Assembly (NCBI RefSeq): GCF_016278385.1
Contig: NZ_JADQBY010000013.1
Span: 62,001 to 126,000, forward strand
Length of the DNA: 64,000 nucleotides
Origin: Methanolobus sp.
GTDB lineage: Archaea > Halobacteriota > Methanosarcinia > Methanosarcinales > Methanosarcinaceae
Direction: 5' to 3'
Position 1 is the stretch's first letter. Each line of letters starts with the position of its first letter. The notes under the pieces are model-generated. The model was given only the letters and a program-made list of their open reading frames with translations, searched no databases and was not told where the DNA came from. A program made the position numbers and the translations under genes. Positions 56,027 through 62,198 of the stretch are shown one piece after another.

Positions 56027-56833
56027 TTAGACAGGGTTATAGTTCTCTGAACTCTCCCATTTAGCATTGAGGAGATGGGATATCGTGTGCGAGAACTCCT
56101 CGGCACTAGCCCATACGGCCATAAGGTCAGCTTCCCCCTCATCCTCTTTCAGTATCTCAACGATCATCTCGTTGGCATCCACAACTACTACGAAGCTTTT
56201 GAGGTCCATACACGTGTCCTTCACAGAATTCACTTTGACAGATGCGAGGGGGACCAGATCAGAGAGTCTCCTTGCCTCATCCTCGTGTGAACTGATAAAC
56301 CTTATACTGATACCTTCATTAGTGATCTTCCTGTTGAATATGCCAATAATCGTAGTATGGTCCTTTTTGAGGGAAGGATACTTTTCTGCAAGTGTACGGA
56401 AAGGTGTTAATGAACTCATCACCAGTATGTCCTTTTTAGCACCCTCGATCATTTGTATGAACTTATCAGTGACATTTCTGGTACCTTTGAGGGTCCAGAT
56501 GGGCCCTTCGTCTCCGCCACAGGAACAGACACCATACATCTCTTTAAGCTCTGTGAGGACCGTATCACATTCTTCTTCATAGTCACGTTTCAGTTTTGCT
56601 ATAGCTTCTTCAGGAGGAAGACATCTGTAACGCATTGGTTTTGTATTCTGGTATTCGATGATACCTCTTTTTTCCAGTTTCTTGAGAGAGCCATAGATAG
56701 CAGAATTAGGAACACCGGAATCAAGATGTAGGGCGGATACTGTTGCACATTCGTTTTTTATAAGAGCAATAAATACCTTTGCCTCATATGATGTGAGGCC
56801 GAGGTTCTGGAGAGATGTTAGAAGTATTGTAAT
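56027..56833 (-). CDS. TrmB-family transcriptional regulator; probable AUU start
   Basis: About 268 residues if translation starts at ATT 56833. The winged-helix domain is complete (NLGLTSYEAKVFIALIKN, SGVPNSAIYGSLKKLEKRGIIEY), followed by a coiled coil (PEEAIAKLKRDYEEECDTVLTELKEMYG) and a TrmB effector-type domain. No ATG, GTG or TTG exists in frame between the TAA at 56848 and the ATG at 56635, which would lose the whole DNA-binding domain. GGGG (56845-56842) lies 8 nt before the ATT. It is divergent in role from, but on the same strand as, the exporter operon upstream, and probably controls it. Confidence 0.85.
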   Translation of the reverse strand: MTILLTSLQNLGLTSYEAKVFIALIKNECATVSALHLDSGVPNSAIYGSLKKLEKRGIIEYQNTKPMRYRCLPPEEAIAKLKRDYEEECDTVLTELKEMYGVCSCGGDEGPIWTLKGTRNVTDKFIQMIEGAKKDILVMSSLTPFRTLAEKYPSLKKDHTTIIGIFNRKITNEGISIRFISSHEDEARRLSDLVPLASVKVNSVKDTCMDLKSFVVVVDANEMIVEILKEDEGEADLMAVWASAEEFSHTISHLLNAKWESSENYNPV

Positions 56834-56896
56834 GATATCAACCCCTTAATTAGAAGAAAAACACATAAATAAACAAATAAAAAAAAGAGAAGAAAA

Positions 56897-58007: not shown

Positions 58008-59117
58008 TTATTTATTTGATTTCTTCGATCCATTTTTTCTGGTATTTTTGATTATCAGTACTATTCCCACAATTACAAGTCCTGCAAGAGCAAGACCGGT
58101 TACATTGACCTTTCTTTCAGGCTGTTTCAGGAAGACATTGACTTTCATATTGTTTGAGTACGCATCTTCACCGTCTACGTCTGTATATTTGATCTCACTG
58201 TCAATGCCGTAGCTCTTTTCAACAGCCTGGAAATCAGAAGCAATGTCAAATGATACGGTTCTGCTCTCACCAGGTTGCATCGTACCAAGTGATTGTATAG
58301 GGCGCCCAGCACTCAATGGTTGCATCATTATCAACCTTGCAACTGCATTTTCTGCAGGAAGTTCTCCGATATTGGTATAGGTTATATTGAGGGTGTTAGC
58401 GCTACCTGCTGTAATATTTCCTGAAACACTGCTTACCTCAAATTTAGCTTCAGGTACTATAATAACAGGAATCTGGATCGTTTGCTCAACTGTTTCATAA
58501 TAAGTTGCGTGATCCAGGTCCGGCCTTCCAAGTATTATAGATTCACCGGCTGTCATCCTCACGTCTTTCGGATATTCATAGTTTAGTGGCATTTCAAGAA
58601 GATATGTTCCTGCAGGAGCATTTTCTGAAATAGTAACCGTGAAGACAAAAGGATTCTCCGATAATTCACCGGCAAGCAGTTTCTCCATTGTTTTGCTATT
58701 TGTGGCTGCATCTATCTCTATCAGATCAGTTGAAGATACAAGATGTGCCTTTATTCCATATGCTGATGTTCTCTGAGTTTCGTACTGTAGCTCCGTAAGA
58801 GATAGCTGGTGAGCATTTCCTGATGTTTCAACAAATGTGCCTGGTTTGAAACCGTACAATACACCTTTGTTGGATATCATTATTCTTATCTGAGCGGTTT
58901 CACCGCGTTCGAATTCGGTGTCTCCGAGAACTGATGCGTATATATCAGGTTCTCCGTAAGCCTTGTAGTAATTGTTCGTATATTCATAGGTTGGGGATAT
59001 GTATTCCTTTGCAGTTGCCGAAGGCATCAGCAGAAAAGTAGCTGCAAGAAGGATACATATCAGTAAGGGGATAAAATATAGTTTTAATTTGTCAACTTCA
59101 TTGGATGTGCCATTCAT
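58008..59117 (-). CDS. Exported COG1361-type (S-layer-like / CARDB) protein, copy 1
   Basis: A 369-residue surface protein with an N-terminal hydrophobic signal or anchor (LYFIPLLICILLAATFLLMPSATA), beta-sandwich domains (GEPDIYASVLGDTEFERGETAQI; FEVSSVSGNITAGSANTLNI; RPIQSLGTMQPGESRTVSFDI) and a C-terminal helix (VTGLALAGLVIVGIVLIIK) plus basic tail. It overlaps the RND exporter gene by 4 bp (ATGA), so both are co-translated. It is placed outside the membrane, and could be the periplasm-side partner of the exporter; this is inference from coupling. Confidence 0.88.
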   Translation of the reverse strand: MNGTSNEVDKLKLYFIPLLICILLAATFLLMPSATAKEYISPTYEYTNNYYKAYGEPDIYASVLGDTEFERGETAQIRIMISNKGVLYGFKPGTFVETSGNAHQLSLTELQYETQRTSAYGIKAHLVSSTDLIEIDAATNSKTMEKLLAGELSENPFVFTVTISENAPAGTYLLEMPLNYEYPKDVRMTAGESIILGRPDLDHATYYETVEQTIQIPVIIVPEAKFEVSSVSGNITAGSANTLNITYTNIGELPAENAVARLIMMQPLSAGRPIQSLGTMQPGESRTVSFDIASDFQAVEKSYGIDSEIKYTDVDGEDAYSNNMKVNVFLKQPERKVNVTGLALAGLVIVGIVLIIKNTRKNGSKKSNK

Positions 59118-61492
59118 GTGGTTATGGCCTCCGGAATAGTTTTTGATTCATGTGTATCTATGATTTTGGTCCCACGACCTATTGGTGCATGTGCTCTTCT
59201 TTTCTCTCTGAATTTATCAAGTGTGACAATTACAGGAGGGAAGATCACAAACGTAGCCAGCAGAGCTAGGAATACATCTATAACTGTTATCAGGCCAAAA
59301 TTGCTGGTAATACTGAATGGTGATGCGATCAACGCAGAAAAACCAAACACAGTGGTTGCACCGGATGTGACGATGGCTTTTCCAATCTTTACACTCGCTT
59401 CCTCCATTGCCTGCTCGGGGTCAGCACCCTTTTCCTTTTCCTCGAAATAGCGTTCCATCATAAGGATTGCATATTCAGAGCCTACTCCAAGGATAAGTGC
59501 GCCAAGGGTCGCGGTCATTGGTGTGTATTCCAGACCTGTATAATACATGAGGCCTCCAGACCAGCCGACTACCATTATCATAGTTATCACTGGAGTTAAA
59601 GCCTTCAGCAGATCACGGTATATCACAAGCAGGCCTCCAAATACCAAAATAATTCCCAGCATTGTCATCATGGTTCTGCCAGAGGTCAAAGCGGTTATAA
59701 CTTCGACAAAGACAACTGAGTTCCCGGTTATGGTTACTTCAGTTCCGGGAGGAGGTGCCATCCACAGGATATCTTCTTCTACTACATCGGTGAGTTCTCC
59801 GATACCCATAAGTCCAAGCTCGCCCATTGCATTTCCTATTTCAAGATTGACCAAAAGTATGGAATTTCCGTGAAGATAGCTGTCCTTCTGGACTTCGGGT
59901 AACTGATCATACAATGCTGCAACCTCTGCCGAACTGTCTGGGATTTCTCCTCCGTTTTGGGATTTAATGAGATCAACAATGCTATTTGAACCATAGATAT
60001 GGCTCCTTCCTTTGACCTCATGCTGTGAGAACTCATCTATCCATTCAAGTAGTGCCGGATCGTTGTTGTTGTCCGTCTTTACTATCAGGTTTAATTGATC
60101 CTCTCCACCCAGAATTTCACCCATGTGTTTAAGATCTATCAATGCAGGAAGATCCTGAGGTACAAAGGTTTCCGTATCAGTCTGGATAGAAACCATTGTA
60201 TCTGCAATAAGTCCACCAATACAAAGAGAACCTGCGATAGCTAGAACAAGTACTGAATGCTTCATTGAAAAACCAGATATGCTTTTAAGCGACTTTTCCA
60301 GGAAATCCGGCTCATGTTCAGATATCCCCGTCGAAGATACTTTTCGCTTAGAAGATGGCTTTTTAAGTCCTATCTTTGAGAGAATGTTTTTTTCTGAAAT
60401 TTTATGGAAGCCATATAGTACTGTTACTCCTACAAATAATGAAGATATGAAGCACATCACGATACCGATCATCAGGAGTTTTCCGAAATCCTGTATCATT
60501 GGAACAGTTGATGTAAACAATGAAAAGAAACCGAGAGCTGTTATTATCAGAGCGATCAGAACTGCAGGACCGGTGTGTTTGATAGTATTTATTACTGCGT
60601 CTTCATCACTGCTACCATGTTCCAGTTCTTCTTCAATCCGGTTATGGAATTGGATGGCATAATCTATACCAAGTCCTATAAGCACGGGGAAAGCAGACAT
60701 TGAAACCATTGTCATTGGAATATCCAGATAACCCATGGCTCCAAATGTGAAAATTATACCAAGTATGACTATTGGAAGCGGAAGCAATCTCCACCTTACA
60801 TGTTTGAATACAAGATACAACACAACCATCATAAGAAGAATTGCAATCATGAGCAATGTACCCATACTGGTATTCATTGCTTCATTCATTTCTGCCGAAA
60901 AAGCAGGATCTCCCGTTACGATTACATTATAATCTCCCGGAAAATCAGCCATTTCAATAGATGTTCGGGTTTCCCTTAGTATTTCCGTTTTCGTGTTATC
61001 TGAAGTGGTAGCTTCAACGATTACCGACATGATGGCATGGGTTTCATCAGGAATATAATATGTCGGAACCGATGAACTGATAATTTCATCGAGAACTTCT
61101 GCATCATCTGGGATTTCACTCCGTCCCATCATCTCATAATTAGCATCTTTGATAATAGACGATGGGGAATTAACTTGAATTACTCCCGGGATATTGATTG
61201 TAGACTCGTATGCCCTGTCCATTGCTTTGAGAAGTTCAGGATTTGTTATATCACTACCCTCAACCATTATTACAATGGATTCAGTACCAAAGAGATTCTG
61301 GTAAAGGTGATCAAAATCCTGGTATAGTTGAGAGTTCTTGTTTACAAAGGTATCAGTCCCTGATGCCATCCCTATATACTGAGCACCCTGAAATGAAATA
61401 ATCACGAGAAGAAGCGTGATTAACATAATAGGAATCGTATTGTCTTCGATGAAGACACCCAGTTTTTCAAAGATGTTTTTTATGATAAACAC
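59114..61492 (-). CDS. RND-superfamily exporter (MMPL / HAE3 type)
   Basis: A 792-residue exporter with 12 predicted membrane spans in two halves. Each half has a large external loop (GTDTFVNKNSQLYQDFDHLYQNLFG; DTETFVPQDLPALIDLKHMGEILGG) and an RND core (FPVLIGLGIDYAIQFHNRIEEELEHG; TATLGALILGVGSEYAILMMERYFEEKEKG) with the proton-relay Asp/Glu region. Substrates of this group are lipids or hydrophobic compounds. The start given is GTG 61492, but GGAG overlaps it; an AUA at 61483, exactly 8 nt past GGAG, gives the family-like KNIFEKLGVF start. It is first in the three-gene operon. Confidence 0.92.
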   Translation of the reverse strand: MFIIKNIFEKLGVFIEDNTIPIMLITLLLVIISFQGAQYIGMASGTDTFVNKNSQLYQDFDHLYQNLFGTESIVIMVEGSDITNPELLKAMDRAYESTINIPGVIQVNSPSSIIKDANYEMMGRSEIPDDAEVLDEIISSSVPTYYIPDETHAIMSVIVEATTSDNTKTEILRETRTSIEMADFPGDYNVIVTGDPAFSAEMNEAMNTSMGTLLMIAILLMMVVLYLVFKHVRWRLLPLPIVILGIIFTFGAMGYLDIPMTMVSMSAFPVLIGLGIDYAIQFHNRIEEELEHGSSDEDAVINTIKHTGPAVLIALIITALGFFSLFTSTVPMIQDFGKLLMIGIVMCFISSLFVGVTVLYGFHKISEKNILSKIGLKKPSSKRKVSSTGISEHEPDFLEKSLKSISGFSMKHSVLVLAIAGSLCIGGLIADTMVSIQTDTETFVPQDLPALIDLKHMGEILGGEDQLNLIVKTDNNNDPALLEWIDEFSQHEVKGRSHIYGSNSIVDLIKSQNGGEIPDSSAEVAALYDQLPEVQKDSYLHGNSILLVNLEIGNAMGELGLMGIGELTDVVEEDILWMAPPPGTEVTITGNSVVFVEVITALTSGRTMMTMLGIILVFGGLLVIYRDLLKALTPVITMIMVVGWSGGLMYYTGLEYTPMTATLGALILGVGSEYAILMMERYFEEKEKGADPEQAMEEASVKIGKAIVTSGATTVFGFSALIASPFSITSNFGLITVIDVFLALLATFVIFPPVIVTLDKFREKRRAHAPIGRGTKIIDTHESKTIPEAITT

Positions 61493-61649
61493 TCCTTGTG
61501 ATTAATTATAATAATAAAAAAACTCCTTTCTAGTTGTTTTGAATACTGGCATTAATGTTTTATTGCATATATAAAGGTTTTACCCTTTAATAAACTAGTA
61601 ATGAGTTAAAATCAATTAATAGCTAATAATTGGAAAGCAAAATGAGTAT

Positions 61650-61770
61650 CGAAAAAAGATAATAGGGTATGAGACATCCCGGAAAGGATGTCTCGTTGGG
61701 GGTTGGATAGGGTTGTACTAACATACACGATAAGCGTGTTGTTAATGGTACACACCAGTACAACTGTATT
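61650..61770 (-). ncRNA. Candidate structured small RNA
   Basis: This GC-richer island lies in an AT-rich 508-nt gap. On the minus strand GTTGTACT (61764-61757) pairs with AGTACAAC (61719-61712), enclosing a GGT/ACC mini-hairpin and a CACG/CGTG hairpin, as in a three-way junction. A C-rich linker (CCAACCCCC, 61706-61698) follows, then a perfect 9-bp hairpin GAGACATCC/GGATGTCTC (61694-61671) and, 13 nt on, CTTTTTT (61658-61652). A box A-like GATATATAG near 61798-61790 would start transcription near 61770. No coding frame fits. It is not a family I recognise. Confidence 0.5.
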
Positions 61771-61897
61771 ATTAGTAGATAAACCTTTCTATATATCGTC
61801 AAGTATGGTTTATTTCCTATAGATTCGACTATAATAATTAGAAATTAAAGATAAGTTTACAGCTACAAAGTATAGATTAAAAACACGGCTGAGTACT

Positions 61898-62000: not shown

Positions 62001-62198
62001 TTAATGGTCTTTCAGGGTTCCGGAAACATATCCTGGACAAATTCCCGGTTTTCTGTCTTCCATAAGTGAGCTAAGGTTTACTTTATTTCCCTTTATCCAA
62101 TCAGTATCAAGGTTCCTGATGGGCAGCTCTTCGATATGAGCTTTTAATATTTCAACGGAAGATATTTGTCTTTTATGATTTTCTGAATTTGATTCCAC
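62001..62198 (-). CDS. Small protein of unknown function
   Basis: A 65-residue hydrophilic protein. The GTG start at 62198 has a strong AAGGTGG Shine-Dalgarno with 6-nt spacing, which is the main support for it being translated. It has a helical first half (SSVEILKAHIEELPIRNLDTDW) and a CPGY motif near the end with its single cysteine. No family is recognised. It is divergent from the TrmB gene at 62.4 kb. Confidence 0.6.
   Translation of the reverse strand: MESNSENHKRQISSVEILKAHIEELPIRNLDTDWIKGNKVNLSSLMEDRKPGICPGYVSGTLKDH

Follow-up and report, generated by a model that had tools for sequence, protein, structure and literature searches.

The window analysed here, a stretch of 64,000 nucleotides from Methanolobus sp., carries on its minus strand a predicted sRNA gene that sequence comparison shows to be conserved, covarying and separately promoted; its exposed strand hardly varies, and it has siblings. 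We infer that it is transcribed, very probably as an autonomous sRNA gene, and its membership in a family of sibling RNAs is also likely. The explanation that we prefer, to which we give about even chances, is that of a free-standing, trans-acting sibling sRNA that would pair through its C-rich strand with a set of mRNAs.

A predicted sRNA gene and its promoter

The features of the locus are given in Table 1. The sRNA would start at GUGUACC, around position 61753, and the centre of the TATA box lies about 27 nt upstream of this probable start. The preliminary description of this DNA had placed a box A at the right distance upstream of a small RNA: the BRE and the TATA box are indeed kept in all 16 aligned Methanolobus orthologs. 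The conserved box that precedes them reads CTGTCTATTTATCG or CTGTCGATATATCG in other orthologs. The genome of the window holds no second full match to the sRNA promoter, and the sRNA unit itself is present there as a single copy. Letters that this promoter has in common with Methanoperedens genes were set aside as generic BRE and TATA elements.

Table 1. Predicted features of the sRNA locus and its surroundings, and two sibling RNAs of the same genome. Positions are those of the window unless a contig is named.
Feature	Position	Strand	Basis
Conserved box before the sRNA promoter, TTGACGATATATAG	61789..61802	-	Alignment of 16 Methanolobus orthologs
BRE (AGAAAGG, 61784-61790) and TATA box (TTTATCTA, 61776-61783), sRNA promoter	61776..61790	-	
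sRNA gene, about 102 nt	61652..61753	-	Conservation, covariance model R1, fold z-score, pair counts
5' hairpin	61712..61753	-	Closing GUGUAC/GUACAAC (bulged); double changes in inner stem
Exposed C-rich linker CCCUAUCCAACCCCCAAC, core element	61695..61712	-	Nearly invariant in 15 close orthologs
3' hairpin GAGACAUCC..GGAUGUCUC, 9-10 bp	61671..61694	-	Paired cells and double changes
T run, probable 3' end	61652..61657	-	Sequence; U-rich tract after the hairpin in orthologs
Separate promoter of the exporter operon, AAGGGTAAAACCTTTATATA	61567..61587	-	Conserved; palindrome over the TATA box
MMPL/RND-type exporter gene, first of the neighbouring operon	59114..61492	-	PF03176, 5.5e-60
Sibling L285	G000:C2:43148-43213	+	R3, E 2.2e-9
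Sibling L305	G000:C24:2668-2739	-	R3, E 3.1e-9

Fold and covariation

The 161 nt delimited at the outset have a minimum free energy of -37.6 and a z-score of -3.8, and none of 200 shuffles is as stable, which bears out the proposal of a structured island on the minus strand. Trimmed to 105 nt, the RNA reaches a z-score of -6.0, and eight orthologs range from -4.0 to -4.8. The proposed succession of a C-rich single strand, a hairpin of 9-10 bp and a T run can also be read in the sequence. The proposal fails on the 5' side: the closing helix of 8 bp, GUUGUACU/AGUACAAC, forms its eight pairs only here, seven of them in G116, the nearest relative of the window genome, and 0 to 6 of them in 14 other aligned orthologs, so that it does not belong to the conserved fold; moreover, the bases of its 5' strand come before the inferred sRNA start. 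The 5' helix conserved across orthologs is GUGUAC with GUAC(C/A)AC, and the inner stem of the 5' hairpin, AACA..ACACG/CGUGU..UGUU, has a conserved fold.

Sequence variation among the 15 close orthologs is low. When five diverged members are included, 94.5% of the cells of the resulting alignment of 20 sequences are paired, and double changes occur in 8 of the 26 pairs; shuffles give 2.4, and slid structures 0-3. These figures lean towards the paired result because the alignment was fitted to the covariance model. The 3' hairpin is paired in 99% of its cells over these 20 sequences, with double changes at three pairs: in G138, GACAUCC/GGAUGUC becomes GACACCU/AGGUGUC, and the compensation is plain by eye.

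The RNA keeps its first description as unassigned, since it has no match in Rfam: searches around the element, at the gathering threshold and at E<=10, returned only chance matches below threshold, and no family of C/D or H/ACA guides, SRP, RNase P or riboswitches reached its gathering score. The possibility of a common genomic terminator repeat, with hairpin GCATCC/GGATGC, was rejected: this hairpin is rare.

Distribution of the orthologs

BLASTN and R1, a covariance model built from 15 sequences, locate orthologs of the sRNA in 20 of the 27 Methanolobus genomes; conservation and compensatory changes, which had been suggested as a check of the structure, are both found. BLASTN yields copies with 77-89% identity in 14 other Methanolobus genomes, and R1 adds the five diverged members, at E-values from 1e-5 to 6e-7. 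The ortholog loci include those of M. vulcani, M. bombayensis, M. psychrotolerans, M. profundi and M. halotolerans. Beyond the 20, G126 holds a recognisable but degenerate copy (E 0.5). Two Methanohalophilus genomes, G110 and G107, give weak matches with R1 (1.3e-4 and 0.0097), and values of 6.5e-6 and 0.0084 with R2, the model of all 20 sequences. Weak matches of either model in Methanosarcina, in Methanoperedens and at G116:788530 were discarded as coding sequence or lone hairpins.

The exporter neighbourhood

In 18 of the 20 genomes, the sRNA is followed on the same strand, after 120-400 nt, by an MMPL exporter and two CARDB/NEW3-type proteins, and is preceded by a divergent TrmB-type regulator. 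In most Methanolobus genomes, the sRNA also adjoins a conserved reading frame of 65 amino acids (window 62001-62198, minus strand), with no Pfam match, which in many of them lies between the sRNA and this regulator. Every exporter-linked genome that was inspected has a strongly conserved promoter, GGGTAAAAYCCTTATATA, between the sRNA and the exporter. A palindrome, AAGGGTAAAACCTT, at window positions 61574-61587, covers this exporter promoter and is kept in the exporter-linked genomes; the divergent TrmB-type regulator may use it as an operator.

The two remaining genomes differ. G124 keeps the sRNA together with its promoter and the small reading frame (64 amino acids), but has no exporter nearby, and exporter homologs are found on other contigs. 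In G125, the contig ends 440 bases from the element, and linkage to the exporter cannot be judged. Since the exporter has its own conserved promoter, and since the RNA persists exporter-less in one genome, we take the RNA to be free-standing and not a leader.

Further observations concern the same neighbourhood. In genomes with a longer gap (loci L075, L078 and L080), a second copy of a box, TGTCGATATATAGTCAG, lies between the sRNA and the exporter; it resembles the one that precedes the sRNA promoter. A second TrmB-type regulator gene (window about 56027-56850, minus strand), located immediately after the exporter operon, has no in-frame ATG, GTG or TTG near its conserved N-terminus here, so it may use a non-standard start or have a broken start codon. 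In Methanohalophilus G110 and G107 (loci L218 and L219), the related element stands directly before an operon, the same in both genomes, that encodes an ABC ATPase, a CARDB/NEW3 protein and a MacB/FtsX exporter, with no obvious second promoter before it. A link with exporters is thus seen in two genera, with the MMPL type in Methanolobus and the MacB type in Methanohalophilus, and points to a possible function under envelope or export stress.

Sibling RNAs

The search with R2 revealed a second RNA in G116, in which GUACCACC is accompanied by a C-rich strand and by a terminator hairpin that covaries. We then searched 112 Methanosarcinaceae genomes for the pattern of GUACCACC with CCCCC no more than 14 nt behind it. 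Besides the orthologs, 21 further matches were inspected, 16 of which are intergenic, outside long open frames, and 5 of which are in genes. The siblings are intergenic, combine GUACCACC, a C-rich strand and a hairpin scaffold, and are also found in Methanococcoides, Methanohalophilus and Methanomethylovorans. They come in two scaffolds: in one, seen in Methanolobus, the C-rich strand runs between two hairpins; in the other, seen in Methanolobus G114, G129 and G130, Methanococcoides and Methanohalophilus, a long helix closes a large loop that contains it. Fold z-scores are -2.6 to -5.1 for the two-hairpin type and -4 to +1 for the others, the scores of the large-loop siblings often not being significant. 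Among siblings of the two-hairpin type, all cells of the 3' hairpin are paired (100%) and 4 of 10 pairs show double changes; these siblings have no same-strand gene close behind.

The constant part of the family is GUACCACC: siblings differ in how long their C-rich part is and in its letters (CUAUCCAACCCCC, CCCCCAAACCCCC, AACAUAUUCCCCC), while GUACCACC is fixed. The copy in the window genome itself reads GUACAACC, which is not an exact GUACCACC, and its orthologs read GUACCACC. Sub-groups of sibling promoters are conserved between genomes. Searched against the Rfam RNA families, the sibling loci have no match except a neighbouring tRNA.

A third covariance model, R3, was built from six two-hairpin siblings and includes no window ortholog. 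It recovers several window orthologs in whole genomes, as weak matches with E-values of 0.003-0.1, and finds two siblings in the window genome (Table 1). Both are intergenic and carry GUACCACC, a short C-rich strand and a hairpin ACCGAU..AUCGGU, and their promoters are conserved in other Methanolobus genomes. The other occurrences of TACCACC..CCCC in the window genome, 7 against 11 for a reversed control, were rejected as further siblings: nearly all are in long open frames, with no sRNA features.

The closing helix of the Methanococcoides RNA covaries, and GUACCACC is invariant in the main copy of this RNA. This structured RNA is genus-wide (loci L202-L209, L216 and L217), with GUACCACC and CCCCC in its loop, and lies about 60 nt before a gene for a surface protein with a cohesin domain; the paralog at L216 and L217 has no same-strand gene behind it.

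Mode of action

According to the explanation that we prefer, the sRNA's own promoter would drive a stable transcript, about 102 nt long, with the terminator-like 3' hairpin at its end, and the two hairpins would present the nearly invariant C-rich strand as a single strand. The siblings would bring different promoters and hairpins to a common "GUACC + ACC + C-rich strand". The sRNA would act in trans, after transcription, and a limited set of mRNAs would offer G-rich segments with which its C-rich strand can pair. Whether base-pairing is the main mode of action is, in our estimate, an even call.

Two definite targets had been proposed in the preliminary description: the linker, through CAACCCC, would repress a TrmB gene at 56.8 kb and an Lrp gene at 7.2 kb by covering GGGGTTG in their Shine-Dalgarno regions. 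The complementarity of 7 nt exists, and both GGGGTTG sites either overlap the start regions or precede them by a few bases. However, the match is a weak one: about 5 such matches per window are expected by chance, and GGGGTTG occurs 10 times in this window against 5.4 expected. Among the 12 genomes examined, the TrmB gene has the site in two, this one and its closest relative; in the ten other Methanolobus genomes the TrmB start is without GGGGTTG, while the linker is nearly invariant. Nor is GGGG a preferred motif at Methanolobus starts: upstream of 160 of them, GGGG occurs at 0.5 times and GGTGGT at 0.9 times the coding background, compared with 8.8 times for GGAGG. Because GGGG and GGUGG are not enriched at starts, the sRNA does not mask ribosome-binding sites in general, and repression of these two genes seems to us highly improbable. 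A search for complements of the extended linker (18 nt, at most 3 mismatches) gave none elsewhere in the window genome. Duplexes of the linker with mRNAs of the locus were also scanned, with a query that took in the 5' hairpin as well; no target at a start site recurred, and no conserved target of the sRNA was found.

With pairing as first choice, its main rival is the titration of a C-rich-binding protein: GUACCACC and the C-rich strand would be a binding site through which the siblings recruit, or titrate, an RNA-binding protein with a preference for C-rich single strands, in place of pairing with mRNAs. The variable C-rich part of the siblings, loosely constrained next to a fixed GUACCACC, also suits protein binding, as do the several copies per genome and the lack of an extended complementary site. 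However, no protein candidate was identified, and in close orthologs the linker is invariant nearly letter for letter, beyond the need of a loose C-rich site; we regard this reading as rather unlikely. The tight operon link in 18 of 20 genomes could also mean a role in cis, as a leader or attenuator of the exporter operon, with termination at the 3' hairpin or read-through into the exporter genes. The Methanohalophilus elements directly before the MacB-type operon (E 6.5e-6 and 0.0084) and the Methanococcoides element before the cohesin-domain gene point in this direction; such a role is nevertheless improbable, given the separate conserved promoter in between, the exporter-less copy of G124, the two-hairpin siblings with no close gene behind them, and an alternative antiterminator pairing that was not seen. 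Finally, a reading frame of 59 amino acids with a TTG start overlaps the element, but the indels of the orthologs are not multiples of three, the stems covary and there is no protein family match: a small protein-coding gene, or a chance structure in AT-rich DNA, is the least credible of these readings.

Returning to sibling sRNAs, we propose tentatively, and with slightly less than even confidence, that the methylotrophic Methanosarcinaceae possess a multi-copy sibling-sRNA regulon, in which distinct and separately conserved promoters would lead to one common effector, and of which the window RNA would be the exporter-linked member. The effector would consist of a hairpin with a GUACC closing and, after it, a single strand rich in C. 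Two hairpins would flank this strand in one form; in the other, a long helix would close a large loop that displays it.

Comparison with known systems

To our knowledge, a function has been assigned to few archaeal sRNAs. The sibling RNAs have no entry in Rfam, and their family was previously uncatalogued. It offers a handle on the question: a common exposed effector element, promoters whose signals may differ, and known genomes that are free of the element. The use of sibling sRNAs in archaea as in bacteria, and the ligand of the C-rich strand, become testable.

The closest characterised archaeal sRNAs are those of Methanosarcina mazei: sRNA154, sRNA162 and sRNA41 are intergenic and trans-acting, and sRNA41 and sRNA154 act on ribosome-binding sites (PMC5867862). 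Like the window RNA, they belong to the same archaeal family and are intergenic, with their own promoter and stem-loops. The R1 and R2 searches gave no credible match to the window family in Methanosarcina genomes, and the NrpR operator GGTA-N6-TACC, carried by sRNA154 (PMC3177094), was not seen by eye at the window sRNA.

Within the genus, Methanolobus psychrophilus R15 has intergenic sRNAs, nine of which are conserved, cold-induced and preceded by a "cold box" (PMC5378194). They come from the same genus as the window RNA and, like its orthologs, have among themselves a shared box upstream of the promoter. If they are the siblings described here, transcription of the family has already been shown, and its existence is partly known.

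The nearest analogues by way of working are bacterial. The C-rich anti-Shine-Dalgarno sibling sRNAs of bacteria, among them the UCCC-motif sRNAs of Staphylococcus, come in several copies per genome, with different promoters and a common unpaired C-rich stretch between stem-loops. The closest is a rhizobial family with CCUCCUCCC, for example NfeR1 (PMC10746234). The window family belongs to another domain of life and carries GUACCACC and a C-run instead of CCUCCUCCC; unlike in anti-Shine-Dalgarno sRNAs of the CCUCCUCCC type, the complement of its core is not a preferred start-site motif here. By this analogy, the proposed regulon would be an archaeal counterpart of the bacterial sibling-sRNA networks.
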